From positions 1-64,000 of IMG/VR virus record IMGVR_UViG_3300050821_004459: a DNA stretch of 64,000 nucleotides; one strand, given 5' to 3'. The position numbers and the translations under genes were made by a program. The stretch is from a virus. The number at the start of each line of letters is the position of its first letter. Position 1 is the stretch's first letter. Positions 45,488 through 63,128 of this stretch are shown here, in pieces. Under the pieces are notes generated by a model. The model worked only from the letters and a program-made list of their open reading frames with translations. It did not search any database and had not been told where the DNA came from.

Positions 45488-45795
45488 ATTGCAGCAAGAG
45501 CGTTGTTGTAATCAAATGTGGCAGGCTGAGTGGCATCGCCATAGTATATTTCAGCTATAGTATTCAGGTACCCTATGAGCTGTAGTGCGTAAGCTGCATC
45601 ACTGATACTTCCAGGATTTGCATCATTCGCGGTAGAACCAAAACCCATTGCCTCAAGAGTCGCGAGGCCGGTACCCGTACCATTTATCTGCAGTGATAGA
45701 TTTGATGCCGACTGTAGCAGGTTACGTAGCGCGACTGAGAGGTTGGTGATGTTCTGACTTATTGATGCCGAATTAGACTGTGCTCCGACGGTCAT
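45472..45795 (-). CDS. Hypothetical virion-type protein (107 aa)
   Basis: ATG at 45795 overlaps the stop of the minor-tail gene. Ser/Asn-rich helical N-terminus (SQNITNLSVALRNLLQSASN) and a C-terminal helix with an aromatic end (YNNALAAMWAGQ). Likely tail-associated because of position. Confidence 0.55.
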   Translation of the reverse strand: MTVGAQSNSASISQNITNLSVALRNLLQSASNLSLQINGTGTGLATLEAMGFGSTANDANPGSISDAAYALQLIGYLNTIAEIYYGDATQPATFDYNNALAAMWAGQ

Positions 45796-48700
45796 ATGCC
45801 TAGCCTTTCCACTATCGAGTTGGTGCAAACAATGCTTGGGCTACCAGTAGTTGCCACCCAGCCAGCCTGAAATCCAATATTAGTTGTCGAAGTGCAGTCA
45901 AGACCGGATGTGCTCTGCAAGTCAAATGCATAACTTTTGCTGGAACTACCAGCCACTGAAGTCGTCCAGGTGAAGAATCCTGACAGTGTAGCAGCAGCAC
46001 TTGATCCACCACTTCCGAATACTATCTGCGCAATACAATGCCAGTGGAATCCATTACTTGTAGCCAGGTCTGGTCCTGTTTGTGTAAGACCCATTACAGT
46101 GTTAAATGTGAATATCTGAAATTTCAGGGCAACTGAGGTTGACCCCATCGTCCCATGTCCGCCACAGCTTATCCGATATGCCGTAAACTGTATCGTATCA
46201 TTAGCCTCGATCACATAGGCCGGGGTGAGATAATTCATGCTTGAAGTAGCATTGCTACTCCCCGCAGCATTCTGCCCCGTTGAAGCTACCATGCGACCGA
46301 TGGTGCCATTCGGGCTTGTAAAGGCCGGCACCCCTACAGCATCAGACCATATTGTCGTTCCGATTGGACTAGCAGAAGGGCTACTGCCAGATGTGGTACC
46401 CAGTACCAGGCTACCAACAACCTGCAATCCCTGTGGGAACGAATTACTGTAAGCATCGGTTCCGGACACCCCGGAAATAGACACAAGCAGGTTGCCAGTA
46501 GTCGGGGTACCGGAGTATGCCATATAGCTTTCACTAGTGCCAGTTGCTATAAACTGTGCACCGGTAATTGTAGTGGCATTTACAATTCCGGCAACTACAA
46601 TTCCACTAACAAGTTCCCCTGCAGAAATCGTATTGGCGGCAATATTGCTACCGGTAATAGTGTTGGCAGCAATATTGCTCGCAACAATCGTGCCAGCCTG
46701 GATTAGGGATGATATGATTGTACCAGCTTGAATAACATCAGTAGCATTGAAGGTGGTTGGCTGCCACGCCCCGGATTCCCATTGGCTAATTAGTCCGGTG
46801 GTGCTATTAATCCATATGTCTCCGTTGTTAGGGGTGGCCGGAGCAGTAGAGCTAATCGTGACTAGCTGGCTATCCGGAGATAGCGATACGATAGCCTGCC
46901 CTAGCATCTCCGATTGGAGAATAGCATTCTGGATCAGGCCTTCAATATTAGATGTACTAGCCGAAGTATTCCCAGATACGGGCGATCCTATGACCTGATT
47001 CGAAACAACAGTACCAGGCGAGTAACCGCTACTGTACGGAATTTCAGGAACGGTGTTGAATGTTATGGTCCATGTGAGAGCATTTATAGTTTCGGACCAT
47101 CCGAACACCAATTGCTGTATCGTAGTGTTTACAAGGAACGATGGCGGATTCGTGATCTGCAGGTAGTCGCCAATCCGCATCGAGGGAATTGACGAGAAGA
47201 ACGAAGCAACCTGCGATCTTGAAAGATCAAATTGAACAGTGGGGTAACGCTCCTGACTTACCGTGCCCTGCAGCAGTAGCCAGTTCGCTATCCCGGAAAT
47301 CTGCGAGTCTAGTGATGTACTTACATTACGGGAATAATTGTATCCGGGCCCAATGCCATTTGGCGGAGCCTGTACACTCATAACTCCAACGGTCAGGATA
47401 GCATTTACCGTGAATCCGTCATAGTTGGATACAGATACATTATTCCTTGCCATCTGATCATCGTAGGTTGGGGTCATCGAGCCAGCTAGAGTTGCACTAG
47501 TGAAGCTAACTACGAGTGCAGCCGATTGACTTTGCATACTAGCTAGGGAACGATAACCAAGTCCAAACTGATCTCTACTTTCATATAGCAAGCCACAGTC
47601 AGTATTCTCAATCAACTGCAAAACGTTCATGATTGTATCATCGACCTGCGGGCCCATGGTAGCAGTACTAGTGTTAGTCCCTATGGTCTCAGATGCAATT
47701 CCCAATTCAGAGCAAAGCCGAGTGAACCGGTCCATGGCATATTCACCGATGTACCCATTCAGAGGATACTGAGCACTGGTAAGACTTGGCACCTGATAAT
47801 CAACGTATAGGTGCCCGACGGCCGTACTATACAGCACTCCTGCACGATTTATCAGGACCTTAGACACAGCAGCAATAGTGGAGGACGTAGAGTAGGTGCC
47901 AGTTACGCTCTCCGTAATGGATGATGCTCCCGGTTTGATAACACGGAGCGCCCAGGCAATATTAGATCCAGACGGGGTAAGCTCCGCGCTTACCAGTATC
48001 GCAACCCCCTGGTAGTTACCGGTGGTTGTTCCAGTAAACAGAATGGTTCCGCCGGAGTTCCTGCCATCAATAGTCAGCGTGCCATTGAAATTCAGATACA
48101 CTTCAAGTTTTGCAACTGTACCGGAGCTATCGGTCTCTGATATACACCAATCGGAAGTACCCGAGGCACTATCACCACCAGTCGGCACGTACAGAAGATA
48201 TCTGGTTACATTATTTGTTGGGGTCCCACCAGAAGGAACTGTGAATGTAGATATCGATGCATTTAGCTGGCAGATCGCATCACTGCCCTGGAAATTAGAT
48301 ACAGCCCCGAAGCTGGGCGGACCTCCGCTAAATGTACCATTAGACTCGCCCGGTAGAGCCGCGACCCAGGCTGTTGATCCAGAGCCATCCTCCATGGCCC
48401 AGTAAGCATGCGGGGCGCTAGAACCGGTCAGGCTAATCATATTGTACCGGTAATAGGGGCTGCCTATTGTTACTGTATTCTGTGACAGACGCCGTACGAT
48501 ACCGCTAACCGTAATGTTGGCATATACATCAGTGCCGGTAGAGTCAAAGGCTGGCGGCCATTCAGATACCTCGCCCCAGAATCGATATCCACTATAAGTA
48601 ACAAAAGTGGAGGACTCGGAGTTCACCGAAATCCGGAGCTGAGTATTTCGAGTGATGTACGGGTAGTAAGCCCCGGATGTATTAATCGGGCTGAAACGCC

Positions 48701-48887
48701 CATCTCGGTTATTCAGAGTGAGTGTTGCCTGAGCAGCCTGTATCGTAGACTGCTCATCGGCTCGACCAATGCCGGTTATCTGTATTGGATTACGCTGATA
48801 AACATACGTAGATATATCAGTCCACGTAGCATTGACCAATAGCTCGACTTTGACGCCGAGGATATTAGCCGGGAACGGAGCTACCAT
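45792..48887 (-). CDS. Minor tail protein / distal tail-fibre-type protein (1031 aa)
   Basis: The N-terminal region (VKVELLVNATWTDISTYVYQ, RADEQSTIQAAQATLTLNNR, DGRFSPINTSGAYYPYITRN) matches minor tail proteins that follow tape measure genes in actinophages. Residues about 120-300 look like a laminin/lectin-type beta-sandwich (PHAYWAMEDGSGSTAW). Residues about 680-800 contain ITGSNIAANTISAGEL-type triple-stranded fibre repeats. The C-terminus is a Ser/Gly/Thr-rich beta domain that could contact the host. Overlaps the tape measure gene end by one base. Confidence 0.85.
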   Translation of the reverse strand: MVAPFPANILGVKVELLVNATWTDISTYVYQRNPIQITGIGRADEQSTIQAAQATLTLNNRDGRFSPINTSGAYYPYITRNTQLRISVNSESSTFVTYSGYRFWGEVSEWPPAFDSTGTDVYANITVSGIVRRLSQNTVTIGSPYYRYNMISLTGSSAPHAYWAMEDGSGSTAWVAALPGESNGTFSGGPPSFGAVSNFQGSDAICQLNASISTFTVPSGGTPTNNVTRYLLYVPTGGDSASGTSDWCISETDSSGTVAKLEVYLNFNGTLTIDGRNSGGTILFTGTTTGNYQGVAILVSAELTPSGSNIAWALRVIKPGASSITESVTGTYSTSSTIAAVSKVLINRAGVLYSTAVGHLYVDYQVPSLTSAQYPLNGYIGEYAMDRFTRLCSELGIASETIGTNTSTATMGPQVDDTIMNVLQLIENTDCGLLYESRDQFGLGYRSLASMQSQSAALVVSFTSATLAGSMTPTYDDQMARNNVSVSNYDGFTVNAILTVGVMSVQAPPNGIGPGYNYSRNVSTSLDSQISGIANWLLLQGTVSQERYPTVQFDLSRSQVASFFSSIPSMRIGDYLQITNPPSFLVNTTIQQLVFGWSETINALTWTITFNTVPEIPYSSGYSPGTVVSNQVIGSPVSGNTSASTSNIEGLIQNAILQSEMLGQAIVSLSPDSQLVTISSTAPATPNNGDIWINSTTGLISQWESGAWQPTTFNATDVIQAGTIISSLIQAGTIVASNIAANTITGSNIAANTISAGELVSGIVVAGIVNATTITGAQFIATGTSESYMAYSGTPTTGNLLVSISGVSGTDAYSNSFPQGLQVVGSLVLGTTSGSSPSASPIGTTIWSDAVGVPAFTSPNGTIGRMVASTGQNAAGSSNATSSMNYLTPAYVIEANDTIQFTAYRISCGGHGTMGSTSVALKFQIFTFNTVMGLTQTGPDLATSNGFHWHCIAQIVFGSGGSSAAATLSGFFTWTTSVAGSSSKSYAFDLQSTSGLDCTSTTNIGFQAGWVATTGSPSIVCTNSIVERLGI

Positions 48888-51800
48888 CAGTTATTCTTCC
48901 CGAACGCACTCTGCACGTTACCTCCGCCACGAACACGGACCCACTTCTTTAGCATCTTTACCATGAACTGTTCAAAATCAGAATTGCCGCCAGTCACTTC
49001 GAGGCAAGTCGATCCACTACCACCCCCGGTATCATTAGACAGATGCTCCGGTCTTCCGGTCCCATTGTAGGCCAGGTTCATACCGGGCTTGAGCCAGCCC
49101 CCATTGTCATACCAGTTATACTGCAACTCGTGCGCCCAGGCATTCTGCGGATTGCCATAACGCCCAGAGATATATCCGATCCCCCACTGCTCCTGGGCGT
49201 ATACGTTCGAGCTACCGCCCGCGCTGGCCGGCCATGCGGCCTGCGGCATCTTTGTGAATGGCAGGGCCTGGGGAATTCCATATGCACCGGAAGACGGGTT
49301 ATTCGCAAACTGGTTCCATCCTGATTCCTGGTTCCAAAGCGCGACCCAGTCTGTCCAGTTAAATACGTCCGTCCATGATGGCATGAGAGCCCTGGCGATA
49401 GCCTGGTTTGTAGAAGCACTCCCGCCGCCGGAAGGGTACGGGCCACCGCCCGTTGGCTTTATTTTCCCAAGAGCAGATTTTAGGTCGTTAGCCGCAGACT
49501 GTCCGAATGCCCCCTCCCAGTCCTTCGTGAATGTGACCCCGTAGCCACCGGCGGTATCGACCAGGCCGCCAGCGGACATCCCGGGCACACCCATCATCGC
49601 GAGTAGCCCTGCATACTTCCTTGTCCTGTATTTATCGACGACAGCCTCGCCAGGCTCCAGGAGTCGCAGTAGTTTGTCTCCGCCACCGAAACCGGGCAGT
49701 AGACCACCAGTACTGAGACCACCGAGCACCATATGTGCAGTAGTCTGGCTCATACCGGGCAGAGTAGAAGTTTCAGATATCCCGCCGCTACCACTCATGT
49801 GTAGACCGACCGAAACCGTCTTGCCCTTCAGCGCATTGATCTGGCCCTGCAAGTTCTGCACATAGCTCTTAGCATCCTGTGCGGAAATTCCGGTCTTCTC
49901 AAGGTCATTGATGAGGTTCTGCCTTGCATTATGATATGCGCTAGTCTCATCACCGCCGTGCGTCAGGGCATCGGTGAACTGCTGCATGGCTTGGGTCGCA
50001 CCACTAGACTTCAGCAAGTCGGCCTGGAACTGACTGGTAAGCTGTGTCTGCAATACATTGGCGAGCTGCCCGGCCTTAATCGTAGACTGGGCTATGATCC
50101 CATTCAGGCCCTGCAGAGATGTGCTATTATTATTGACCCATGTATTCAGGTTCTTCAGGCTAACCGTGCCAGGGCCAAGCGCATCATTGATCATTGCAAC
50201 AATCGTAGCGCGGGCTGCGTCATTGTTGCCAGCGAATGGGATCATCTGCGCGGCTATCGTAGCTGTCGCCGTCGTTAGATTCTTGGTGCTAGCTTCCTGC
50301 TGTTCAAGTGCATCGATTACCTGCTGGCCGCTAGTCACCTGCGAGTAGAATGATTGCTGCATAGTATAGTCAGCCTGGGTAGTCCCGCCCATAGCAGCAC
50401 CGACTAGGCTCACCGAGTTCTTGATATCACCTAGAGTGTGACTAGCAGTAGATGCAGCGTTGCTCGTTGCACCGAAGTTGCTAGTCATGGTAGCGAGTCC
50501 AAGAGCGAACGTGTCTAGACTCGACTCGCCTTCGGTCACAACAGTCATCAGATTATCCTGCGCCTGTGTGATGCTCTGGATACTATGCAGCATGTCGCCC
50601 AAGAACTGCTCCGGACCACTCAGAGCATTCATTGCAGCAGCGTACCGTCCGGTGCCGGTAGCTAGCGACTTGATAGCATCATTGTATCCCTCAGCCTCAA
50701 TAATACTTTCTGCAAATTGCTGCTTACTTGTGGTCAGGAATTGGCTGCTACTTATTCCCGCATTATTAAATGCAGCGAGAGCATTGCTAGCACTCCCAAA
50801 TACACCAGCAGCAATTTTCATATTGCTATTGTATATTGATTGGTCCTGCTGTGCCGTCTGAATAACCGCAGAATAATCTTCAACATTTTGTTTGGCTTGG
50901 TAATAAGCCTGTGAGTATTCTATTACTTCATGTGTTACACCATGGAAATCAGGTAGCTTTACTTCGTGCGCAGAACTTGCAAGATCATTTTGCTGCTGCT
51001 TCGCATAATAGAGAGCTGTGCTGTAATTAGTTATATCATCAGTTATAGTAGAGCCTAGTGCAGATAGCTTTACGGCCGTGATAGACTGCTGGACTCCCGA
51101 GGCAAACTGCTGTGCGGCACTTTTCGCATTTACCAGAGAATAGATAAGGACACCTATCGCAGCTGCTGCAATAGTAATCCATCCCCATGGCAGAGTTGCA
51201 GCACTTTCGGCTTGAGCTGCAAAGTCGCCCATAACATTAGCTGCGCCACTAGCCCCGATCTTGCCAAATCCCAATCCAATATTGAGTAGCATAGGAGCCA
51301 GACCCGCTAGGGTCTTGGACACAAGGAGAGCTGCGGCAGTCCCTAGAAGACCTATGTAAAGGAATGCTCCATGTGCTGCGAGACCAATCCCTATCAGTTT
51401 CTCGCCTATACCAGACCCCGTAACGTTCTCCACAAAGTGCGAGAATGCATCCGCAACATTCAGGATGACCTCGGCATAACCCGGCATCACCTTGAAGAAG
51501 TTGCCAAGAATGCCACCAATGTTACCTATCAGGTCACCCCAGCCAGCCAGGTCAGATGCAGAGTTCTTCATGAACCCGCTGAACCCAGCACCCTGCGTCA
51601 TCGCATAAGTGAAGCGAGCCCCTAGCTGATCTAGAACAGATCCGGCGGCTAGCGCTACGCTCTGTAGAAGTCCGGCATTCTTATTGACTACCTGCAGGCC
51701 CTCCCCGAGAAGGACATACACCTCTGGCTGAGCGGCCTGATTCATTTTGGAGAATGCACCAGTTAGTGGATACACAGATTGCCCGGTCATATCAATGACC

Positions 51801-53194
51801 TTGTCCATGTTCACAAAGTGATTGTATATCTCATCCGCACTGTCAACTCCGGCGGCCGCAAACGCCGCGAGGCCAAGTGCAGCAGGTATCAGAGTCGCGC
51901 CAACTTCAATTATGCCATCAATGAGCATGTGAATGCCGGATGCCGTAGCAATAAATGCCGGCAGCATTCCATTAAGTGCTCCACCGAAGAGAGAGAGGTG
52001 TCCTCCAAGCCCGCCCCATAGGATTCCGCCCGACTGCCACATCGGGATACCCCTGGTAAAGTTGTCATTGAATTGCGATAGGACGGCGGAAGCTACTGCG
52101 AATCCACTACTGCTCAGAGCACGGAGGTCGCCAAGAAGAGAACGGGTTCCACTTCCTGCCGATGCCATAGCACTAACTAGACCATCGCCGATAGAGCTTG
52201 CATATAGCCTCGCGCCAGTGATGGCCTGACCGCCCATGTAACTTCCGATATCACGCAGGGCATTGAAAGCATCACCGACAGAAGACGGGAAGGCACGCCA
52301 CGCATTGCCAGCGGAAGTCGCGGCATTAAGCATTTTATCTTGCATGTACTGCCCGAGAAACTGCAGGACTCTATATGTACCCGAAGCACCGTTTGTTACA
52401 TTATCCCACATATTAGCTAGATTAGGTAGCATGTTCGAGAAAAGATCACCGAACATAGCGCCATACCTAGTGCCATCATCAAGGCCAGCAGAATAATCTA
52501 GAACGTCCTTTAGTGCATCGCTGAAGGCATTATCAGAGTCACGAAGGGAACTGCCCATATCCTCGGAAGCTTTAACCGCATCATCCCAGGATATAGCAAG
52601 ATGCCCCATATCCGCATTCGCGAGCTTTACTGCATCATCCCATGCCGTCAGGGAAGATACATCGCCAAACTTCGGAATTTTAGATGCATCATAATTAATG
52701 GGGACACTAAGCCCCGTCATACTAAACTTGGGTAGTTTACCGATATCAAAGTTTACCGGGATTGTTTCGCTAAGCTGCCCAATCCATCCTAGCTGCTTAG
52801 TCAGACTAGACTGGTTAATGTTCATGTCCATGATGTCAGCAATGCCAGCTTGCTGAATAAGTCTCTTCAGGAACTGCAGCTGTGTGATGATCCTGCCCTG
52901 CGGAATGTTAATATCCGCTATGTCTGCGATTCCTAGGGACTGCACCCTAGACTTAATTGACGTCAGTGACGAGTTAATTTCACTCGTGCCAATCTTGACG
53001 ATTGACATATCACTGATATTTTCCTTGAGCTTGTCTATCTTGTCTGATACACTATCGATGTTATCCGACATAGTGCTTGTATCAATGGCACCCTTGGACG
53101 CACTCTTCAGCGCCTCCATCTTGGCGAGGGCAGCAGCAAATGCAGGCCCGGTCAGATCTGTAGCCGTAATCCTAATGTTTACTTCATTAGCCAT
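48887..53194 (-). CDS. Tape measure protein with soluble lytic transglycosylase domain
   Basis: 1435 aa, the longest gene here, in the position after the tail chaperones. Mainly helical with coiled coils in the first 250 residues, several hydrophobic stretches (LPWGWITIAAAAIGVLIYSL), and a C-terminal lysozyme-like domain at about 1270-1370: DWVALWNQESGWNQFANNPS with the catalytic-type Glu, then GAYGIPQ and WGIGYISGRYGNPQNAW. The protein sets tail length and its hydrolase opens peptidoglycan during DNA entry. Length predicts a tail of roughly 200 nm by the usual rule of about 0.15 nm per residue (inference). Confidence 0.93.
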   Translation of the reverse strand: MANEVNIRITATDLTGPAFAAALAKMEALKSASKGAIDTSTMSDNIDSVSDKIDKLKENISDMSIVKIGTSEINSSLTSIKSRVQSLGIADIADINIPQGRIITQLQFLKRLIQQAGIADIMDMNINQSSLTKQLGWIGQLSETIPVNFDIGKLPKFSMTGLSVPINYDASKIPKFGDVSSLTAWDDAVKLANADMGHLAISWDDAVKASEDMGSSLRDSDNAFSDALKDVLDYSAGLDDGTRYGAMFGDLFSNMLPNLANMWDNVTNGASGTYRVLQFLGQYMQDKMLNAATSAGNAWRAFPSSVGDAFNALRDIGSYMGGQAITGARLYASSIGDGLVSAMASAGSGTRSLLGDLRALSSSGFAVASAVLSQFNDNFTRGIPMWQSGGILWGGLGGHLSLFGGALNGMLPAFIATASGIHMLIDGIIEVGATLIPAALGLAAFAAAGVDSADEIYNHFVNMDKVIDMTGQSVYPLTGAFSKMNQAAQPEVYVLLGEGLQVVNKNAGLLQSVALAAGSVLDQLGARFTYAMTQGAGFSGFMKNSASDLAGWGDLIGNIGGILGNFFKVMPGYAEVILNVADAFSHFVENVTGSGIGEKLIGIGLAAHGAFLYIGLLGTAAALLVSKTLAGLAPMLLNIGLGFGKIGASGAANVMGDFAAQAESAATLPWGWITIAAAAIGVLIYSLVNAKSAAQQFASGVQQSITAVKLSALGSTITDDITNYSTALYYAKQQQNDLASSAHEVKLPDFHGVTHEVIEYSQAYYQAKQNVEDYSAVIQTAQQDQSIYNSNMKIAAGVFGSASNALAAFNNAGISSSQFLTTSKQQFAESIIEAEGYNDAIKSLATGTGRYAAAMNALSGPEQFLGDMLHSIQSITQAQDNLMTVVTEGESSLDTFALGLATMTSNFGATSNAASTASHTLGDIKNSVSLVGAAMGGTTQADYTMQQSFYSQVTSGQQVIDALEQQEASTKNLTTATATIAAQMIPFAGNNDAARATIVAMINDALGPGTVSLKNLNTWVNNNSTSLQGLNGIIAQSTIKAGQLANVLQTQLTSQFQADLLKSSGATQAMQQFTDALTHGGDETSAYHNARQNLINDLEKTGISAQDAKSYVQNLQGQINALKGKTVSVGLHMSGSGGISETSTLPGMSQTTAHMVLGGLSTGGLLPGFGGGDKLLRLLEPGEAVVDKYRTRKYAGLLAMMGVPGMSAGGLVDTAGGYGVTFTKDWEGAFGQSAANDLKSALGKIKPTGGGPYPSGGGSASTNQAIARALMPSWTDVFNWTDWVALWNQESGWNQFANNPSSGAYGIPQALPFTKMPQAAWPASAGGSSNVYAQEQWGIGYISGRYGNPQNAWAHELQYNWYDNGGWLKPGMNLAYNGTGRPEHLSNDTGGGSGSTCLEVTGGNSDFEQFMVKMLKKWVRVRGGGNVQSAFGKNN

Positions 53195-53797
53195 AGTAAT
53201 CCTCCTCCCGTGGTGCGCCCTCGTCCTCGATATGCCCCATATGGTATATCTTGAGAAGACTAATGATGCCAGCTTCCTCCTGCTTAACGACGCTAGGGAC
53301 GGTGTGAAATCTGTCGCAGAGCCCGACGATAAACTCTGCTTCGTACAGTTCGTTTGGCTTGGTTATTATCCGCCCATCCCGAGTGATCGCTCCAGCGAAT
53401 CGCTTCCATTCATCGAGCCTTTTCCCAGTTCCTCGGATACGCCCGCAATAGCCTTCTGCCACTGCTGCAGAATTTCCCGGATCACCACCTGCTCGTGAAC
53501 GGAACATCCCTCCAGGGTGTGCGGAGTCGGCTCTCCCTCTCGGATGGAAGGGGTATCCTCACCCTCCTTGATCGGTCCATTCTGAGGGTTTTCCAGGTTC
53601 CAGTCAATCAGGTAGTCAAGGAACCTCTGCGTTGCTTTGTCATTATTGTCAGCCACATCGACGTTTGTTGCGGCCTGCCAGCGAAGCATTTCGTTGAACT
53701 CCGCGACCGTCGGGCATCCCACCTTGATCCTAAGCCCATCAAGGAATGTGCCCTCGAAATGTAGATTGTAGACAGTCTTCTCCGGACGGAATCCCAT
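53187..53797 (-). CDS. Tail assembly chaperone, -1 frameshift product (GT type)
   Basis: The upstream chaperone frame starting at 53797 changes to the -1 frame at the GGGAAAA heptamer (53420-53426) and continues KRLDEWKRFAGAITRDGRII to the stop at 53187. The extension is about 78 residues with NELYEAEFIVGLCDRFHTVP. This matches lambda G/GT logic, in which the long form bridges tape measure and tube subunits. The fused reading is inferred from the heptamer in the correct phase and the overlapping open frames. Confidence 0.85.
53366..53797 (-). CDS. Tail assembly chaperone, short form (G type)
   Basis: 143 aa from ATG 53797, chosen because AAGGGA lies six bases upstream; the frame is open further to 53908 but without a site. 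The N-terminal strand region TVYNLHFEGTFLDGLRIKVG and an acidic middle (KEGEDTPSIREGEP) precede GKGSMNGSDSLERSLGMGG at the end. Between the major tail and tape measure genes, as expected. Confidence 0.85.
   Translation of the reverse strand: MGFRPEKTVYNLHFEGTFLDGLRIKVGCPTVAEFNEMLRWQAATNVDVADNNDKATQRFLDYLIDWNLENPQNGPIKEGEDTPSIREGEPTPHTLEGCSVHEQVVIREILQQWQKAIAGVSEELGKGSMNGSDSLERSLGMGG
53420..53426 (-). promoter_or_regulatory. Programmed -1 ribosomal frameshift slippery site GGGAAAA
   Basis: On the - strand the codons CTG GGA AAA place G-GGA-AAA in the right phase for simultaneous -1 slippage of both tRNAs. The -1 frame is open for 78 further codons. Canonical in tail chaperone genes. Confidence 0.9.
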
Positions 53798-53889
53798 TAT
53801 AATCCCTTGCATTATGTATGTGATTGTATATGCGATGTAGCAGGCGAGTCCCGACAGATGAGATGTAATATCCATCGGGACTCCCCTGG

Positions 53890-54318
53890 TTAAGCGTGCG
53901 TTGTCCATGTAGGGGAATTACCATCCGCGAGTTGCCCTGGAACCTGCCAGGTAAGCTCGCCGGTATTCGCACGAGTGATCTGGTAGTCAGTCAAAACATT
54001 GTTTACCACGAGGCTCGGCTGACCGGTGGTAGCTCCCAGAGGGTCAATCTCGACCGACCGGACTACTGTCGTGGATGGTACTGTCGCGAACACCGCGTGC
54101 GACATATTGGCAGCAGTATTGAAAACCCCGTTGAGGGTCAGCGTGTAGTCCGCGAGGAGCAGGATCGTCTCATTCGCAAACTTGTCAACACCGGTGACAT
54201 CCTGCGTCGCGCGGGGCGTCGTGAACGCATAGTTCGTGCAGTCATTGGTGATCGTGCGAGCCACAGAGCCCGAGTCCTGCACGATAATTGCGCCACCAAG
54301 TCCAGAGGTCTTTGCCAT
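53890..54318 (-). CDS. Tail tube-type protein (142 aa)
   Basis: Begins MAKTSGLGGAIIVQDSGSVA and contains TRATQDVTGVDKFANETILL-like strands and TLTLNGVFNTAANMSHAVFA, features of major tail/tail tube proteins. It shares the MAKxSGLG opening with the larger 54796-55740 protein, implying related N-termini. Overlaps nothing functional; next downstream is the chaperone gene. Confidence 0.65.
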   Translation of the reverse strand: MAKTSGLGGAIIVQDSGSVARTITNDCTNYAFTTPRATQDVTGVDKFANETILLLADYTLTLNGVFNTAANMSHAVFATVPSTTVVRSVEIDPLGATTGQPSLVVNNVLTDYQITRANTGELTWQVPGQLADGNSPTWTTHA

Positions 54319-54322
54319 TGAA

Positions 54323-54796
54323 TTACCCTCTCTTCTGTGTTTCTATAATTTTGTTCTGGTTGATCGAGAAATCCTCGACCCAGTCATCGATGTACTTATG
54401 CTGCACCGGCGGCGCGAAGTACTTACGCCAGTCCCCTGCCCTAACGAACAGAAGCGGTTCCCGGCCGACCGGTAGCCGGTGGTCATGTTTCGTTCCGGCA
54501 AACCCCTCGTTGCCGGGAGGATAAATGAAATGGAATAGATACATTCCCTCTCGATCTATCGTGTATGATCGTGTCTTATCGTGCGTGACATAGTCGAATT
54601 GCTTCTCGCCAAGAGGGGTGCTCTTGTCAATGGTAAGAACGAATCCGTTCAGGAAGTCTTCACAGTTCACCTCCTCACATGTCGCTTTACGCCAGTGTGT
54701 ACTCAAGGGACGCGACCAGGAGTATGTCTTGTAATTTTCCGGTCCGACCTTAGACACCAGTCTGTTTAGAGGCGGCGGAGTGAATCTTGGAGGCAT
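54323..54796 (-). CDS. Tail-module hypothetical protein (157 aa)
   Basis: Starts MPPRFTPPPLNRLVSKVGPE; mixed alpha/beta with several His and aromatic residues (MYLFHFIYPPGNEGFAGTKH). The single CEEVNCED pair is notable. Lies between two tail tube-like genes with one-base overlap. Specific function unknown. Confidence 0.6.
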   Translation of the reverse strand: MPPRFTPPPLNRLVSKVGPENYKTYSWSRPLSTHWRKATCEEVNCEDFLNGFVLTIDKSTPLGEKQFDYVTHDKTRSYTIDREGMYLFHFIYPPGNEGFAGTKHDHRLPVGREPLLFVRAGDWRKYFAPPVQHKYIDDWVEDFSINQNKIIETQKRG

Positions 54797-55740
54797 TAGA
54801 ACACCTGTCCTGCTGTAAGGTTCCTATTCATTGCGACGACGAAAGAACAGTACGTAAATGTACCAGTCGTAACTACCTTTAGGAATTCATCTACAGTGGT
54901 AGTGTTTGATACAGACTGGCGGAATCCCCCGATTGCTGTCTGCGATCCGAAGTCCATCAGCGTCGAGTAAGTACCACCCGAGGTAGTGGCATGTGTGATT
55001 GTAATGTCTACCGATGTTCCGACAAAGTCCAGTATCTCTAGGTAAGCCTGAGCCCCAAAGTTAGTCGCAGCACCCTGGTCGACTGCGCCTCCGACAGTCG
55101 CTGCAGTATCCGTCCGAATACCAGATGTTAGGAGGGTTCCCCACTCATACCCGAATCCGCTTGCGTCCACCTCTACCTGGAATGTCAGGTTGCCGTTGGT
55201 ATCGCGCGTGCCATCGTAGTTCAGCTGAACCCCGGTCATGCAAGCAGCAGGGTTGCCAACAGCAGTGCCACGAGCATACATGCAAACCGTATTCCCCCGG
55301 GGAAGCGGAGCCAATGCATTGTGCATAGCACCAACAGCAATCCAGTTCCATGTGGGAGCTGACGAGTACGTCATGGCGATACTCGCGGAAGCAGGGAGGA
55401 GGTAGGTGCCAGCTGCAGTGCCAGCAGTTACGCCATTAATAGACACATTCGTCACAGTCCCGGTAATAGTTACCAGTACGGCGAAATTGTATGTGCTAAC
55501 ATACGGCACCGTGCTCCCGGGAACAAGCGGATTTGTAACTGTTGTCGCATCCTCGAACAGCGATGTGAACTTCATAGTGCCAGAGCGAAGACCGAATAGC
55601 CGCGCCTCCGCAGACTGCTTGATTGATGTAGCCTCAAGGACGGCAATGGCTCCGCTGATCGAGTCAAGGGAGGCAATGTCTCCAGACAGATCAAAACCGC
55701 CAATGTAGAAGTTGTCGCCTAGGCCTGACTGCTTTGCCAT
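54796..55740 (-). CDS. Major tail protein candidate (314 aa)
   Basis: MAKQSGLGDNFYIGGFDLSG, then IAVLEATSIKQSAEARLFGL and GTMKFTSLFEDA fit actinophage major tail proteins. A beta-rich insert at about 90-180 (VSINGVTAGTAAGTYLLPAS) and a C-terminal lectin-like sandwich (TSVDITITHATTSGGTYSTL) resemble extra surface domains. Upstream is the giant repeat protein with a tail-terminator domain, a normal gene order. Confidence 0.75.
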   Translation of the reverse strand: MAKQSGLGDNFYIGGFDLSGDIASLDSISGAIAVLEATSIKQSAEARLFGLRSGTMKFTSLFEDATTVTNPLVPGSTVPYVSTYNFAVLVTITGTVTNVSINGVTAGTAAGTYLLPASASIAMTYSSAPTWNWIAVGAMHNALAPLPRGNTVCMYARGTAVGNPAACMTGVQLNYDGTRDTNGNLTFQVEVDASGFGYEWGTLLTSGIRTDTAATVGGAVDQGAATNFGAQAYLEILDFVGTSVDITITHATTSGGTYSTLMDFGSQTAIGGFRQSVSNTTTVDEFLKVVTTGTFTYCSFVVAMNRNLTAGQVF

Positions 55741-55752
55741 TGCACCCTCTCC

Positions 55753-58700
55753 TTACGATATCTGCGCATACATGTCGTTTATAATTACGGGAATGGTAAC
55801 AGTCATAACTCGGTACATATGCCTGTCGATTTCTACATAACCGGCCTGGGCCGAAAGAGATGTCCCTGTCATCCCAAGTAGGTCCAGCGCTCTGACATCA
55901 TCATTACCGCCGAGCTGGAAATCATTGGACAGATCATTCATCAGCTCAGCCGTAGCCGCTGTAATATTAGGGTCTATCATGTCAAACGGCTGTGATGTCA
56001 TAGACGCATATATTCTCTCCTGTAGAATCAGCATGCCGCTGGTAGCTGACTGGCCGGAGCTATTAACAGGAGTTATTGCCTGCACCCATATCGAGCAAGT
56101 AATGCCATTGCCAGGAGCACTCTTTGGCTCGTGCCCATTTACGCTGTCAAAACGCCCGCTATTCTGAGCGTGACTCTGCAGTCGATCAATAATGTCATTT
56201 ATTTCTGCATCACTGAATGGCACGATTATGTCTACCGTTTCTCCCACGGGCCTACCCATGCCACCTTGGACAAGGGACATTGCAGCATTCCCGGTGAAAC
56301 TCAGATCAGCACGGAAAGTGCCGGCACCACCAAATATCGATACATTCGGTCCCACTCCTGGCACATTACTTGGACCCGATGGCGTACCGGACCCGCCAAG
56401 GATATTGACCAGAGCCGCCATGCCCTGTACATTTGCGCTGGCAGCAAGCTGTCCTATTCCAGCCTGTACGAATACATGGCCGCCAGTGCCATTAACATTG
56501 GCATTCGGGAAGTACCCTACTCCGCCATCTACACTTACTAGCGCGCCAACTCCGATTACATTGGCGTTGCCCTCGAATGTCCCGATTCCAGCTATGACAT
56601 GCTGCTGGGCCCCGGTACCGGTTACATGCTGGTCCGTCAGGAAGGTGCCGGCGCCACCAGTTACATCTACTAGCGCACCGGTGCCAGTCACCGAACCACT
56701 ACCGGACGGATTACCAATCCCGCCAGTAACCGCGACTAGGGCACCAGTGCCAGCTGTAGACCCAGATCCCGTGGCCACTCCAGCACCACCGGTGACCGAA
56801 ACTAGGCTGCCAGCTCCAGTGACTACCCCAGCACCCGTCGGGATACCGGTACCGGCTGTCGCTACTACTATTGCACCAGTACCTGCAATTATCGCAGAAC
56901 CGGTAGCCGCACCAGACCCTCCAGCAACATCTACCAAAGCGCCGGTAGCCGCGACCGCCCCGGATCCAGAAACTGTACCAGAGCCGCCAGTTACATCTAC
57001 TGTAGCGCCTACCCCGGTGACAATTCCTGAACCAGACGGGCTGCCTATTCCGCCAGTAACATCTACGAGCGCGCCCGAGCCTGCTACATTCGCTGAGCCG
57101 GATGGCACGCCAATGCCACCGAGTATTGAAACGGCAGCCCCGACGCCGGTATTGTTCTGGTCCGATCGAAGTGAGCCTGCCCCGCCAGAAACGTCGACGA
57201 GTGCGCCGACTCCTGTAACGTTGGCGTATCCAGCCGGGGTCCCAATCCCGGCAATTACACCGACTAGCGCCCCGACGCCAGTTATGTTAGCATTGGGAGC
57301 AGTGCCAGTAGCTGTTCCCGCCCCGCCAATTACATTTACCAGTGCGCCCGTGCCGGTGGGATTTGCCGACCCTGATAGGGCGCCCGATCCGCCGGTTACC
57401 GCTACCGTTGCTCCGACGCCAGTGACATTCGATCCGCCACCGGCTGCACCAATACCACCAGTTACATCTACCGTCGCCCCAACACCGGTAACCCCGGCTG
57501 AAGCAGAGAAGGTGCCTGTGCCACCAGTTACATCTACTAGCGCACCGGTGCCCGTTATCTTCTGGTCGGAACGGAGAGATCCTGCTCCGCCAGTTACATC
57601 GACTATTGCGCCGACCCCGGGTACATTGGCCGACCCGGCAAGTACTCCTATGCCGCCAGAAACATCGACTAGCGCGCCGACCCCGGTAACATTACCATAA
57701 CCGGCCGGGGAGCCAGTACCCCCGGTTACGTCGACTAGCGCACCGACACCGACTACATTGGCCGATCCAGATACCGCGCCTGCACCGCCGGTAACATCTA
57801 CTAGCGCCCCGACGCCCGTTACATTTGCGCTAGGTGAAGTACCGGTGGCTGTGCCTATTCCGCCAGTTACATCTACGAGCGCCCCGACGCCCGTGATCTT
57901 CTGGTCGGATGTATTTGTACCTGCACCACCAATAACCGAAACTAGCGCGCCAACGCCTGTTACGTTTGCAGATCCAATTAGAGTGCCAGAGCCACCATTG
58001 ATATGTACCGCAGCTCCGACGCCCGTAACAGAGCCACTGCCGGATGGAGTGCCTATCCCTCCGGTTACATCGACTAGCGCGCCGACTCCGGTAACCGGTG
58101 CAGAACCGCTCGCTGCACCAACGCCCCCGGTAACGTCAATTATTGCGCCAGTACCGGTGATTTTCTGGTCAGAGCGAAGTGAGCCAATGCCCCCGGTGAT
58201 ATCTACTAGCGCGCCAACCCCGGTTACATTAGCAGGACCGGACGGAGTGCCAACTCCACCGATTATATCTACCAGTGCCCCGACGCCCGTAACCGGAGCG
58301 GAACCGGATGGGGAACCGACCCCGCCAGTTACATCGACTAGTGCTCCGACGCCTGTTATTTTCTGATCAGACGTATTTGTGCCGGAACCGCCAGTTACAT
58401 CTATTAGCGCCCCAACGCCCGTTACGTTGGCATCACCCTCGAATACTCCGACTCCGCCAGTAATGTCTACTAGCGCGCCAACGCCGGTAACATTGGCAGG
58501 TGTACTGATAACTACAGGCGGGAGCGGCGGAAGCGAGTAATGCGTCTTCCAGGCTGCCGGGGAATTGCGACCGGGCGGGGCCAATTGCGGGATCGTCGCA
58601 TAGATCGGCACGCCTATGGCCATAATGCAGGAGCCAGGGACGTCATCAGCGGGCGACTGCGTAAATGTAGGCTGCACGAGGCCAGGGCCAACGCTAGTGG

Positions 58701-59295
58701 CATAGGCATCAATCGTGTCGCCGGTGTTGATAATTGTCCAGCCAGAAGTTACCCCTGTGAACTCTCCATTAAGGTCGGAAGTCGATACTACAGCGGTCCC
58801 ATTGCCCTTCATGCCAATGCCGGGCACCGTATAGCTGGACACAACCGATGCAAGAACATTGGTAGCTGCTGCATTTAGAATAACAGCATTCGGCGGTATC
58901 CCGCTGAATTCTATTACGCCAGCCTCAGACCAGCTTGTGGGAGTCGTAGTAAAGGTGACTGTAACAGAAGTGAATGCCTTAGTGGCACCATTATTATTAG
59001 ATGGAAGACAGGTAGCAATAGTAGTGAATGCATATAGTGTATTTGCAGAGTCATATACACCTGCACAAGGCGGATTCTGGTTGAGAGGGGTAGCAGTAGT
59101 ATATGTCCAGTTGTTAGTCCCTCCGGATGCATTATCAGATACAGAGCTAAGGCTGATCGGGTTATTGCCGGTCATCCACGCAGTGATTGCAGCAAAGTAC
59201 GTGTCATTGGCCGTACCCGTTATCGAGATGACTAGTGACGCACTCGAATTGCCGTTGCTAGATTGAAACTGTACGAATGTCGCCACTAATGTCAC
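55753..59295 (-). CDS. Giant repeat protein fused to a tail-terminator-like domain (1180 aa)
   Basis: GTG start with GGAGGGAGG upstream. Residues 1-265 form a Ser/Thr/Asn-rich beta domain (TFVQFQSSNGNSSASLVISI, FSGIPPNAVILNAAATNVL), like virion surface proteins. Residues about 267-1015 are 34 tandem copies of a 22-residue unit with consensus NVTGVGALVDVTGGxGxxxG. The last 165 residues (IVPFSDAEINDIIDRLQSHA, SAPGNGITCSIWVQAITPV, AGYVEIDRHMYRVMTVTIPV) resemble tail terminator/completion proteins. The repeats probably make a beta-solenoid or flexible Gly-rich fibre. A separate internal start for the terminator domain near 56245 is possible. Confidence 0.8.
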   Translation of the reverse strand: MTLVATFVQFQSSNGNSSASLVISITGTANDTYFAAITAWMTGNNPISLSSVSDNASGGTNNWTYTTATPLNQNPPCAGVYDSANTLYAFTTIATCLPSNNNGATKAFTSVTVTFTTTPTSWSEAGVIEFSGIPPNAVILNAAATNVLASVVSSYTVPGIGMKGNGTAVVSTSDLNGEFTGVTSGWTIINTGDTIDAYATSVGPGLVQPTFTQSPADDVPGSCIMAIGVPIYATIPQLAPPGRNSPAAWKTHYSLPPLPPVVISTPANVTGVGALVDITGGVGVFEGDANVTGVGALIDVTGGSGTNTSDQKITGVGALVDVTGGVGSPSGSAPVTGVGALVDIIGGVGTPSGPANVTGVGALVDITGGIGSLRSDQKITGTGAIIDVTGGVGAASGSAPVTGVGALVDVTGGIGTPSGSGSVTGVGAAVHINGGSGTLIGSANVTGVGALVSVIGGAGTNTSDQKITGVGALVDVTGGIGTATGTSPSANVTGVGALVDVTGGAGAVSGSANVVGVGALVDVTGGTGSPAGYGNVTGVGALVDVSGGIGVLAGSANVPGVGAIVDVTGGAGSLRSDQKITGTGALVDVTGGTGTFSASAGVTGVGATVDVTGGIGAAGGGSNVTGVGATVAVTGGSGALSGSANPTGTGALVNVIGGAGTATGTAPNANITGVGALVGVIAGIGTPAGYANVTGVGALVDVSGGAGSLRSDQNNTGVGAAVSILGGIGVPSGSANVAGSGALVDVTGGIGSPSGSGIVTGVGATVDVTGGSGTVSGSGAVAATGALVDVAGGSGAATGSAIIAGTGAIVVATAGTGIPTGAGVVTGAGSLVSVTGGAGVATGSGSTAGTGALVAVTGGIGNPSGSGSVTGTGALVDVTGGAGTFLTDQHVTGTGAQQHVIAGIGTFEGNANVIGVGALVSVDGGVGYFPNANVNGTGGHVFVQAGIGQLAASANVQGMAALVNILGGSGTPSGPSNVPGVGPNVSIFGGAGTFRADLSFTGNAAMSLVQGGMGRPVGETVDIIVPFSDAEINDIIDRLQSHAQNSGRFDSVNGHEPKSAPGNGITCSIWVQAITPVNSSGQSATSGMLILQERIYASMTSQPFDMIDPNITAATAELMNDLSNDFQLGGNDDVRALDLLGMTGTSLSAQAGYVEIDRHMYRVMTVTIPVIINDMYAQIS
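56250..58494 (-). repeat. About 34 tandem 66-bp repeats inside the giant protein gene
   Basis: Each unit encodes about 22 residues around G-V-G-A-L-V-D-V-T-G-G. Nucleotide identity between copies is moderate, with recurring GTAACATCTACTAGCGC-like words on the + strand. Copies 10 and 18 carry three extra residues. Two sub-types alternate, one with S-D-Q-K-I between units and one with G-S-A-N-V, hinting at expansion by block duplication. Confidence 0.9.
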
Positions 59296-59311: not shown

Positions 59312-59929
59312 TTAGTCGAGAGCTTCGACAATCCACTCTGTACACTGAATGGTAGCATTTGCCCCGGCCAGAGTAGCAGCCAAGCCAATCCCCGTAACCT
59401 GCGTTGTGTCTATGCCTAGCGCAGTTTCGCCGGTGATGTTTGGCATGGGCAAAACCGTGTTCCCTGCGCTTCCAAGCGCGACCGGGTTAGCCGGTACAGA
59501 AGAGGAAATTTCAAGCCATGCCTGCGTCGAAACGCTACCCGAGGTTCCGCTGCCGACTGCTGTGCATCGCAAAGTAGCATCCATATGCCACTGCAGACCA
59601 GTTACAGAACCCGTGCCGGTAGTGAGGCCAACAGTGGTGGCGAACGTTGTATATGTGTTGTTGTTGCCCTTGTTGCAACGTAGGAGCCAGGTTGCTGTTG
59701 TGCTTGTGCCCGTTGTGGTCATGTATCCGCGTGCCATACAGCGGATAACAAGTCCGGGATACCATCCGAGCGGCTGACCATCTGGGTTAACCGATGCCAC
59801 ATCGGATGTTAGAGCCGCAGCCTGACAGGGAGATATCGTAGCGGTAGCAGCGGTGTTGAGAGCAGTGCCGGCCCCGGTTGCCCGCGAGCTGCCGGCATTG
59901 ATCAGAGAGACCCAGCTCTGGTTGGCCAT
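59312..59929 (-). CDS. Virion structural-type protein (205 aa)
   Basis: MANQSWVSLINAGSSRATGA start, Ser/Thr/Ala/Gly-rich beta pattern (GSVTGLQWHMDATLRCTAVG). Reads like a phage surface or decoration protein. Lies just upstream of the giant repeat gene in the late operon. Confidence 0.6.
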   Translation of the reverse strand: MANQSWVSLINAGSSRATGAGTALNTAATATISPCQAAALTSDVASVNPDGQPLGWYPGLVIRCMARGYMTTTGTSTTATWLLRCNKGNNNTYTTFATTVGLTTGTGSVTGLQWHMDATLRCTAVGSGTSGSVSTQAWLEISSSVPANPVALGSAGNTVLPMPNITGETALGIDTTQVTGIGLAATLAGANATIQCTEWIVEALD

Positions 59930-59930
59930 G

Positions 59931-60404
59931 CTAAATCGATTCCCAAGACGCTAGGCCATAAGTTGGGTCGATCGTGTACGTCCAGTTACCGGCGGTAGAT
60001 GTTACCGTCTGCCCGAAGTCGATGATTGCGACCACAGGGTAGGAAGCATCAGCCGATCCAACCAATGTGGTATATATGAACCCGCTGGCAGCCGCGAGGG
60101 TAATCGTCGAGCCGAAGCTGATTGGGCTAGTGCAAGTCCACTTTTCATACTGGGCGGTGGTCCCAGTTCCAACTGCAAGTGACGCAAGGCTGACTCTTGC
60201 ATAGCCACCCGTGCTCACTTCCGTGTATGCACCGGTAATCGATGACACAAACTGGTATGCCCACTGTGTAGCACCCCAGGTGGCCGCCGCAGACGTGCAG
60301 AGGCCCATTTTGAATGCACCAGCGGTGGCAGATGTTAGGTTGATGGAGCCCGCATTTATCAGGCTCTGTGCATACGGGTAAACGTGCGAGGTAACAACGG
60401 CCAT
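59931..60404 (-). CDS. Virion structural-type protein (157 aa)
   Basis: Contains AGAFKMGLCTSAAATWGATQ and GGYARVSLASLAVGTGTTAQ, then VVAIIDFGQTVTSTAGNWTY. This layout (short beta-sandwich with the phrase G-Y-x-R) is common in phage tail/capsid accessory proteins. Two bases separate it from the next gene. Confidence 0.6.
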   Translation of the reverse strand: MAVVTSHVYPYAQSLINAGSINLTSATAGAFKMGLCTSAAATWGATQWAYQFVSSITGAYTEVSTGGYARVSLASLAVGTGTTAQYEKWTCTSPISFGSTITLAAASGFIYTTLVGSADASYPVVAIIDFGQTVTSTAGNWTYTIDPTYGLASWESI

Positions 60405-61576: not shown

Positions 61577-62001
61577 TATGTGTAACTACCCGCCCATGCC
61601 AGGAGTCCAGCGCCGATAATTACACCATAGGTGATTAGAACTGCCTTGACACCCTTTTCGGGGCGCAGTCTAGATATCGCTGCGCCTACCAAAATAACTA
61701 GAAGCGCTGCTAGTGCAAATGCTAGTATTCCTCTTGTAAATATAAATGGCACGCACGGCAAAGTACAGGCAACTAGGGTCGCTAGGCCACAGGAGACTGC
61801 AGGCCAGAACCCGGTCTTGTCATCGCTGCTACTAAGGTATAGGGCCGCGAACATACCCACTAGCTCACCGAGACCATCACCAAGTCCTGCGTGCCATATC
61901 GCAGTCTGATTTCCAGTCAGGCTGGCCATGATCGATACGGCTAGCGTGACACCGTCTGCTGACCCCAGGATGATGGCAATACGCTGCTTGGACATCGTCA
62001 T
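61576..62001 (-). CDS. VIT/CCC1-like four-helix membrane protein (141 aa)
   Basis: At least four hydrophobic segments. GSADGVTLAVSIMASLTGNQ followed by a Gly/Ala helix GLGDGLGELVGMFAALYLSS recalls vacuolar iron transporter (VIT/CCC1) transmembrane segments 1 and 2, which use the same D-G-x-T-V opening and Met/Gly-rich second helix. The MTMSKQR start overlaps the connector gene. A metal-transport role is a guess; a membrane-located virion or lysis role is also possible. Confidence 0.5.
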   Translation of the reverse strand: MTMSKQRIAIILGSADGVTLAVSIMASLTGNQTAIWHAGLGDGLGELVGMFAALYLSSSDDKTGFWPAVSCGLATLVACTLPCVPFIFTRGILAFALAALLVILVGAAISRLRPEKGVKAVLITYGVIIGAGLLAWAGSYT

Positions 62002-63128
62002 ATGACTCGGGTCCTTAGCTTGCGGACGTAAATGCTGTCGCCTAGGAGCTGCAGCAGGCCCTGGTATCCGACGCCAGGGGCTGCCTCTGCATTAGACCCA
62101 AGGAAGTTCATTGCCGATCCGGTCTGGGAGTTGTACGTAGGCACCAGGATCGCATAAGCAGACGGTTCGTTCGTGATACCAATCACCGCCGTTGCAATGG
62201 CAACATCCTTTACAAGACCCGGCACCTCACTGATAGAAGCCTGGGTGCCTTGGGTATATGTGGACGGACTTGTGCCCAGAACACCTCTGTTTACCGAAAG
62301 AAGCCTATTAGCCCATATAGTTGGATTATTGTGCGTCGTAAGGACAGAGCCACCCCATCCTCGCTTCACTACAATATTATTGCCATAGATAGTCTGTATC
62401 AGCATCCACTCGGAATCGAGCAGAAGAATCTCGCTCGCCGAGAACTGGGTTCCATCCGGGACAGTGAGTGTGTTATCGTTATTCTGAGCCGAGTTGCCGC
62501 CCGAACCAGTAGTGGCAATACCGGTCGAGATGTAGTTGCAGTCAGTAACGAGCATTCGCTCGCTACCAATTATGAGTACATCCCCAACGCCCGCTCCCGC
62601 GAGCGGCCCAGCGGCCATCTGAACGGTATTCTGGGTTGTGGATGTAATTGCCGCAGCAATCGGCCCACAGGGAGTCGTATTCGTCCAGAACCCAAATGTG
62701 CCGGTGATCCCAATGTCATTCTGCGGCGTAGTGTTATTGCCGAAGGACGAATTGAGATCCCGGCGCAATTGCAGGGAGTTGTACGGCGGACCCTCATTGA
62801 TGGGGTCCATGAAGTAAGTCCCGGTGGGAATGACAACTGGGGTGTCCAGATAAGTCCCGGACACCACGAGCGTCGGCTGCGCAGCCATCTCGTACTGGTC
62901 GAGCCAGAGCCGCCACGGATAGGCATACTGGTAATTTGGCCAGTCAAATACATATGTAGTATCTTCAGGATAGAACTTGCGCTTGCACATGCCATCTACA
63001 GCGCCTGCAGCTGCGACCAGCTTTCGGTCAATCTGCGGCGCTGTGTAAGCGGCAGGCTTGATGTCCAGCGCTCGCATTACCTCTTCGCGAGTGCAGTAGC
63101 ACGGACGAGTTACCGTCGCAATTGCCAT
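61998..63128 (-). CDS. Head-tail connector-type structural protein (376 aa)
   Basis: N-terminal YCTREEVMRALDIKPAAYTA followed by QIDRKLVAAAGAVDGMCKRK is the helical start of gp6-like connector adaptors. The middle is beta-rich with LVVSGTYLDTPVVIPTGTYF, and LLLDSEWMLIQTIYGNNIVV. The C-terminal part has VPGLVKDVAIATAVIGITNE. Place at the head end of the tail module supports this. Confidence 0.7.
   Translation of the reverse strand: MAIATVTRPCYCTREEVMRALDIKPAAYTAPQIDRKLVAAAGAVDGMCKRKFYPEDTTYVFDWPNYQYAYPWRLWLDQYEMAAQPTLVVSGTYLDTPVVIPTGTYFMDPINEGPPYNSLQLRRDLNSSFGNNTTPQNDIGITGTFGFWTNTTPCGPIAAAITSTTQNTVQMAAGPLAGAGVGDVLIIGSERMLVTDCNYISTGIATTGSGGNSAQNNDNTLTVPDGTQFSASEILLLDSEWMLIQTIYGNNIVVKRGWGGSVLTTHNNPTIWANRLLSVNRGVLGTSPSTYTQGTQASISEVPGLVKDVAIATAVIGITNEPSAYAILVPTYNSQTGSAMNFLGSNAEAAPGVGYQGLLQLLGDSIYVRKLRTRVI

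Follow-up and report, generated by a model that had tools for sequence, protein, structure and literature searches.

The gene described here lies on the minus strand of a 64,000-nucleotide stretch of DNA from an uncultured soil phage (positions 1 to 64,000 of the 95-kb IMG/VR record IMGVR_UViG_3300050821_004459), which we refer to as the window. The gene order at the locus is terminase, portal, protease, major capsid protein, adaptor, fusion gene, major tail proteins, tape measure and tail tip. The features on which the analyses below depend are as follows, with the contigs used for comparison given by L numbers.

61998..63128, minus strand: head-tail adaptor (phrog_442, E 1.5e-5)
59931..60404, minus strand: companion gene, 157 aa, upstream of the stalk module (homologues in L010, L013, L044 and L183)
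59312..59929, minus strand: beta-rich 205-aa protein between the companion and the fusion
55753..59286, minus strand: full fusion ORF including its stop, beginning at the likely GTG start (aa 4 in the longest frame)
58600..59286, minus strand: globular beta-rich N-terminal domain (aa 4-232), a probable appendage tip from its position and sequence pattern
58486..58599, minus strand: linker with the motif PPGRNSPAAWKTHYSLPP (aa 233-270), assigned from its resemblance to the L002 linker
56227..58485, minus strand: array of 34 tandem units, each about 22 residues long (aa 271-1023), the predicted stalk
55756..56223, minus strand: tail terminator domain (aa 1025-1180), assigned from fold, gene slot and stand-alone relatives
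54796..55740, minus strand: major tail protein-like gene, 314 aa, directly downstream of the fusion (in L002 and L003 a homologue likewise comes after the terminator)
48887..53194, minus strand: tape measure protein (phrog_4197, phrog_5448)
45792..48887, minus strand: tail-tip protein, here without the stalk module (phrog_5313; the L013 and L044 homologues carry the module)

The region 55753-59295 (minus strand) was a single open frame of 1180 codons without an internal stop, for which two start codons compete, one at 59295 and a second GTG at 59286. The Shine-Dalgarno pairing was -19.5 kcal/mol at 59286 versus -5.4 kcal/mol at 59295, and the ribosome site at 59286 had the strongest pairing energy among the starts tested in the operon. 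Because this pairing was by far the best of those tested, the fusion protein most likely starts at the second GTG, with the sequence VATFVQFQ. The predicted product is about 110.8 kDa with a pI of about 4.05, and its domains are, in order, a beta-rich N-terminal domain, the 34-unit array and a 156-aa C-terminal domain.

The initial annotation had described 34 tandem repeats of 22 residues that occupied about 2.2 kb and were joined in frame to the C-terminal domain. Our analyses agreed, as there were exactly 34 units at aa 271-1023, the array measured 2.26 kb and the frame was open throughout. Thirty-one of the units had 22 residues, two had 25 and one had 21, with the consensus GVGALVDVTGG-x-G-(7 variable)-N-V-T, whose strict form was matched by 31/34; the most degenerate units were the last four of the array. 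The protein identity at a lag of 22 residues was 0.49, versus a mean of 0.137 in shuffles (maximum 0.168 of 1000). AlphaFold predicted two short beta strands per unit, at low confidence (pLDDT about 60-70). We found no support for a tendency of the array to vary in copy number, as adjacent units were on average only 54% identical at the DNA level (best 70%) and Tandem Repeats Finder reported nothing within the fusion gene; on these two grounds we rejected a DNA-unstable minisatellite. Judged by this divergence, the repeats are old at the DNA level and rapid slippage is without support. The number of units differed between family members, with about 6 in L044, 10 in L013, about 20-23 in L183 and L010, 33 in L002 and 34 in the window. 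Units ending in (S/T)DQ(K/N/H) were numbers 2, 5, 9, 14, 20 and 28, with a spacing that rises through 3, 4, 5, 6 and 8, possibly a trace of array growth.

An ORF of 502 aa, rich in Pro, Thr and Ala, runs antisense across the array at 56192-57700 (plus strand), and a similar Pro/Thr/Ala-rich antisense ORF of 518 aa lies over the array of L183 (6538-8094, plus strand). We rejected 56192-57700 as a gene and regard both ORFs as by-products of the Gly/Val codons of the arrays read backwards; the L183 ORF is probably not a gene either.

Assemblers can be misled by repeats, and the initial annotation had itself raised the concern that an assembly artefact had collapsed or joined two genes. This was ruled out by L002, a contig from another metagenome that independently has the fusion in a single frame, with the same linker (57% identity across 23 residues), 33 units and a terminator of 90% identity, and whose fusion is incomplete at the N terminus where the contig ends. 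In addition, the dN/dS across the junction was 0.11-0.17, far under 1, and therefore the join is translated and under purifying selection; moreover, the DNA units are too diverged for collapse or mis-joining. We consider the chance that an assembly or sequencing artefact produced the join to be negligible, and by sequence comparison the fusion is genuine and has been conserved in a contig of independent origin.

A second possibility is that the one frame gives two products, with the terminator also, or only, made as a separate protein of ~156 aa via an internal GTG at codon 1025 or by cleavage, in which case the rings would be bare or mixed and bear fewer than six fibres. GTG 1025 is kept in L002 and aligns with the starts of the stand-alone genes of L011 and L015, and codon identity was highest at codons 1014-1035. 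However, permutation showed this peak to be weak (p 0.05-0.4, depending on the codon span used), the anti-Shine-Dalgarno pairing of GTG 1025, at -4.1 kcal/mol, was at the level of the background within the ORF (mean -3.2), the ATG/GTG codons 1006, 1013 and 1017 were not conserved, and protein-level selection acts on the junction. Neither codon conservation nor Shine-Dalgarno energy gave positive support to a dedicated internal start, and we hold two products from this frame to be unlikely.

The identity of the C-terminal domain was indicated by its predicted structure. The AlphaFold model, made from a 55-row alignment, had a pLDDT of about 90 across most of the domain, which has the alpha/beta fold of terminators, and its best Foldseek matches in the PDB were either tail terminators or ring proteins of the neck or collar: lambda gpU (3fz2, 3fzb, 8iyd), R4C (8gtf), T5 p142 (8bcp) and Bxb1 (9d94), with further matches to P74-26 and pyocin R2. 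The target-normalised TM of the terminator matches was 0.46-0.74. The gene is also in the slot of a terminator, between the head-tail connector genes and the major tail protein. Searches with the fusion gave no PHROG or Pfam match to any terminator model, the stand-alone relative L003 had no PHROG terminator match either, and the terminator profile, searched against PDB sequences, matched nothing but DARPins over a short stretch, which we regard as spurious. This is a divergent terminator family that is recognised through fold and position, for which a match to a family model is not defining. Among about 150 relatives collected, the domain was mostly a separate gene of about 158 aa, as the initial annotation had supposed in calling it normally a small stand-alone protein with the likeness of a tail terminator. 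By fold, gene order and stand-alone relatives, the C-terminal domain is a tail terminator.

Terminators of the lambda gpU, T5 p142 and SPP1 gp17 type resemble the domain in fold, in the ~158-aa size that it has when alone and in their position before the major tail protein. Unlike these terminators, the fusion has an N-terminal extension of ~1020 aa; the extra domains of known terminators are small folded ones (PMC11784142), that of phage 812 being a beta-sandwich (PMC12886913). The terminator domain was single-copy in the 95-kb record, and a second terminator outside this record, which is itself maybe incomplete, is possible. All genome matches of the terminator (9/9) were to Actinomycetota and the one isolate match was Streptomyces phage Dagobah; because of these matches the host is probably a soil actinobacterium.

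L036 (2-670) encodes a tandem pair of terminator domains within a single open frame, and the contig end cuts the first of them. Four BFVD models (H9YRW0, A0A6J5RH99, A0A6J5L8B8 and A0A6J7WP33; 404-946 aa) were Foldseek matches to the model of repeats plus terminator, and could represent additional cases of terminator fusion among uncultured phages.

Analyses of the relatives showed that the stalk also occurs without a fused terminator. In L010 and L183 the terminator was stand-alone, and an N domain with about 20-23 units was encoded separately, by a gene located between those for the capsid and the adaptor. L013 and L044 had an N domain and units fused to the N-terminal end of the tail-tip protein, whose gene follows that of the tape measure, and these tail-tip homologues were 45-47.5% identical over about 800 aa to the protein at 45792-48887 in the window. 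The BLAST E values of the repeats were 3e-67 (L010), 5e-73 (L183), 2e-20 (L013) and 3e-14 (L044). Wherever sequence upstream of the stalk gene was available, a companion homologue lay there (about 45-58% identical in L010, L013, L044 and L183), and the cassette could be recognised by its 22-residue array of the same type together with this upstream gene. The slot of the 205-aa protein at 59312..59929 is occupied in L183 by a 208-aa protein without sequence similarity to it, and in L010 a methyltransferase-like gene (2237-2812) lies between the companion and stalk genes.

A whole-record search of 48 contigs found repeats in four, three of which (3/4) also had the companion; the remaining one is a fragment, and the companion is present in its duplicate contig. 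One extra partial companion match was at a contig end. The co-occurrence of repeats and companion had a Fisher p of about 0.001 or less, which is indicative only, as the contigs are related. No further viral contig was found by a scan for the exact consensus, a looser repeat pattern returned L002, the L183 group and unrelated chance matches among viral contigs, and the repeat model had no match in 50 more distant records, a weak negative. Repeat carriers were scattered over the terminator tree. The module has three anchorings (terminator, free and tail tip) and on these comparisons looks transferable; we read it as an adhesin or fibre that was grafted onto ring proteins. The free and tail-tip versions go beyond the initial annotation, as does the globular N-terminal domain ahead of the array, which it had not mentioned.

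Equivalent N domains head the appendages of L002, L010, L013, L044 and L183 and are strongly diverged among themselves. That of the window had no family match in PHROG and Pfam searches and, when searched alone, no relatives among viral contigs; for the L010 N domain no relatives were found in phages. A structure model of the N domain with six repeats (23-row alignment) had a pLDDT of 39.6 and no confident fold. Since the domain matches no family, host binding is a role that we infer for it: by analogy it would be the binding part at the tip, and it may be a beta-sandwich.

Other appendages were found on the same kinds of protein. In L035 and two near-identical contigs a 403-aa beta-rich module is on the terminator, and in L107 (724-1944) and L138 (3328-4572) DUF4082 and PKD are at the N terminus of the tail terminator. 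The window lineage, L035 and L107/L138 occupy three places in the tree, each beside stand-alone terminators. The beta-rich modules of L091 (604-2295) and L035 (5677-7419) were 45% identical, and the L091 module is fused to the head-closure protein Hc1 instead (phrog_501, E 3e-14). Based on the three tree places and the L091 head closure, fusion of an N-terminal appendage arose more than once, and in the sequences no fewer than three kinds of ring or tip protein carry one. We lean, if only slightly, to the broader view that in soil actinophages the terminator, head closure and tail tip are interchangeable sockets for fused stalked adhesins, such that a fibre could move from tip to neck, with six terminator-borne neck fibres in the phage studied here. 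Apparent Arg-rich N-terminal extensions in L051, L066, L080, L094 and others were rejected as fusions, as we judged them by composition to be frames over the upstream gene.

Taking ring, stalk, tip and cassette origin together, we consider it likely that the protein is a tail terminator displaying a neck fibre. In this model a hexameric ring of the usual kind, built from the C-terminal domain, would cap the tail tube at the head junction, and the 34-unit array would leave the N-terminal helix of this domain as a stalk of short beta strands, outside the ring, that ends in the globular tip domain. The six arms per virion would form neck whiskers, the most likely function of which would be weak, reversible attachment to the surface of the soil actinobacterium. 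In the AlphaFold model the fused terminator domain opens with its first helix, and in the phage 812 neck the terminator helices are on the exterior, with the channel lined by the sheets (PMC12886913); for this reason we would place the stalk outside the ring. If the units stack like a solenoid at about 0.48 nm each, the stalk would measure about 16 nm, and more in an extended form. As to origin, a cassette of the companion and a tip-and-stalk gene would have landed just upstream of the terminator gene and then fused to it in frame, with related phages having the same cassette unfused or fused to the tail tip.

The array could instead be an internal or structural element of the neck, such as a flexible spacer or a reinforcement wrapped round it, comparable to the Milano collar or the neck decoration proteins of phage 812. 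Proteins that decorate or reinforce the neck have been described at this ring (PMC10491603, PMC12886913). However, L013 and L044 carry the module at the tail tip and it occurs free elsewhere, which suits an exposed adhesin better than a brace specific to the neck, and a unit number of about 6 to 34 suits a stalk. We think a structural element of this kind quite improbable and prefer the terminator-borne fibre.

Known neck whiskers and collars are built from dedicated proteins, and the role of neck whiskers or collars is unclear in many phages. The closest parallel in design is the neck passage structure of lactococcal 936 and TP901-1 phages, which has a neck ring, a stalk and a globular tip, which may be a carbohydrate-binding module (PMC6669499), and which we propose, by analogy, would work like the fusion. 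The 936/TP901-1 neck protein is separate, with a BppU-like ring domain, a coiled-coil stalk and a proposed attachment at the portal or connector, whereas the fusion has the tail terminator as its ring and an array of beta-strand repeats as its stalk. We found no domain match in the fusion to a BppU-like N-terminal beta-sandwich ring domain with a trimeric coiled coil; its stalk is predicted to be beta and its ring-forming domain is C-terminal, with a terminator fold. The neck fibres of T4 (fibritin whiskers), XM1 (collar spikes) and phi29 (appendages) (PMC10491603) are separate coiled-coil proteins with no likeness to the fusion in sequence or anchor. The Gordonia phage isolates GMA1 and Forza each encode a distant homologue of the companion (32% identity), directly upstream of a gene annotated as a 'minor tail protein' (GMA1 gp28, Forza gp107). 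These proteins resemble the fusion in having repeats and a beta-rich end domain, but they are in the tail-fibre region, have the reversed domain order and are not fused to a terminator; the repeat model had no match in either genome.

In the literature outside subscription journals we found no report of a repeat fibre fused to a terminator. The fusion is rare; the proposed neck fibre is of a known kind, and it is the setting, a module with three anchorings, that is unexpected. For a fibre covalent with the terminator, the ring would fix its copy number and place, and the relatives whose stalk is free, tip-borne or neck-borne offer a natural comparison of fibre position and adsorption. Cassette insertion followed by in-frame fusion to a downstream ring protein would be a route to neck fibres. 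There is also a risk for annotation, as long genes of this type may be called tail fibres and the essential terminator inside them overlooked.

Several minor observations were made on the neighbouring genes. Within the major tail protein-like product of 54796-55740 (minus strand), the segment aa 64-135 matched the end of the tail spike profile phrog_11182. Its homologues in L003 and L010 were shorter (255-259 versus 314 aa), and this length excess suggests a domain inserted on the tube. In L003 a glycoside hydrolase-like protein (2141-2992) with a Tat signal (PF10518, weak) is encoded between the terminator and the major tail protein. The two overlapping genes ahead of the tape measure, 53187-53507 and 53366-53908 (minus strand), are likely tail assembly chaperones joined by a frameshift.
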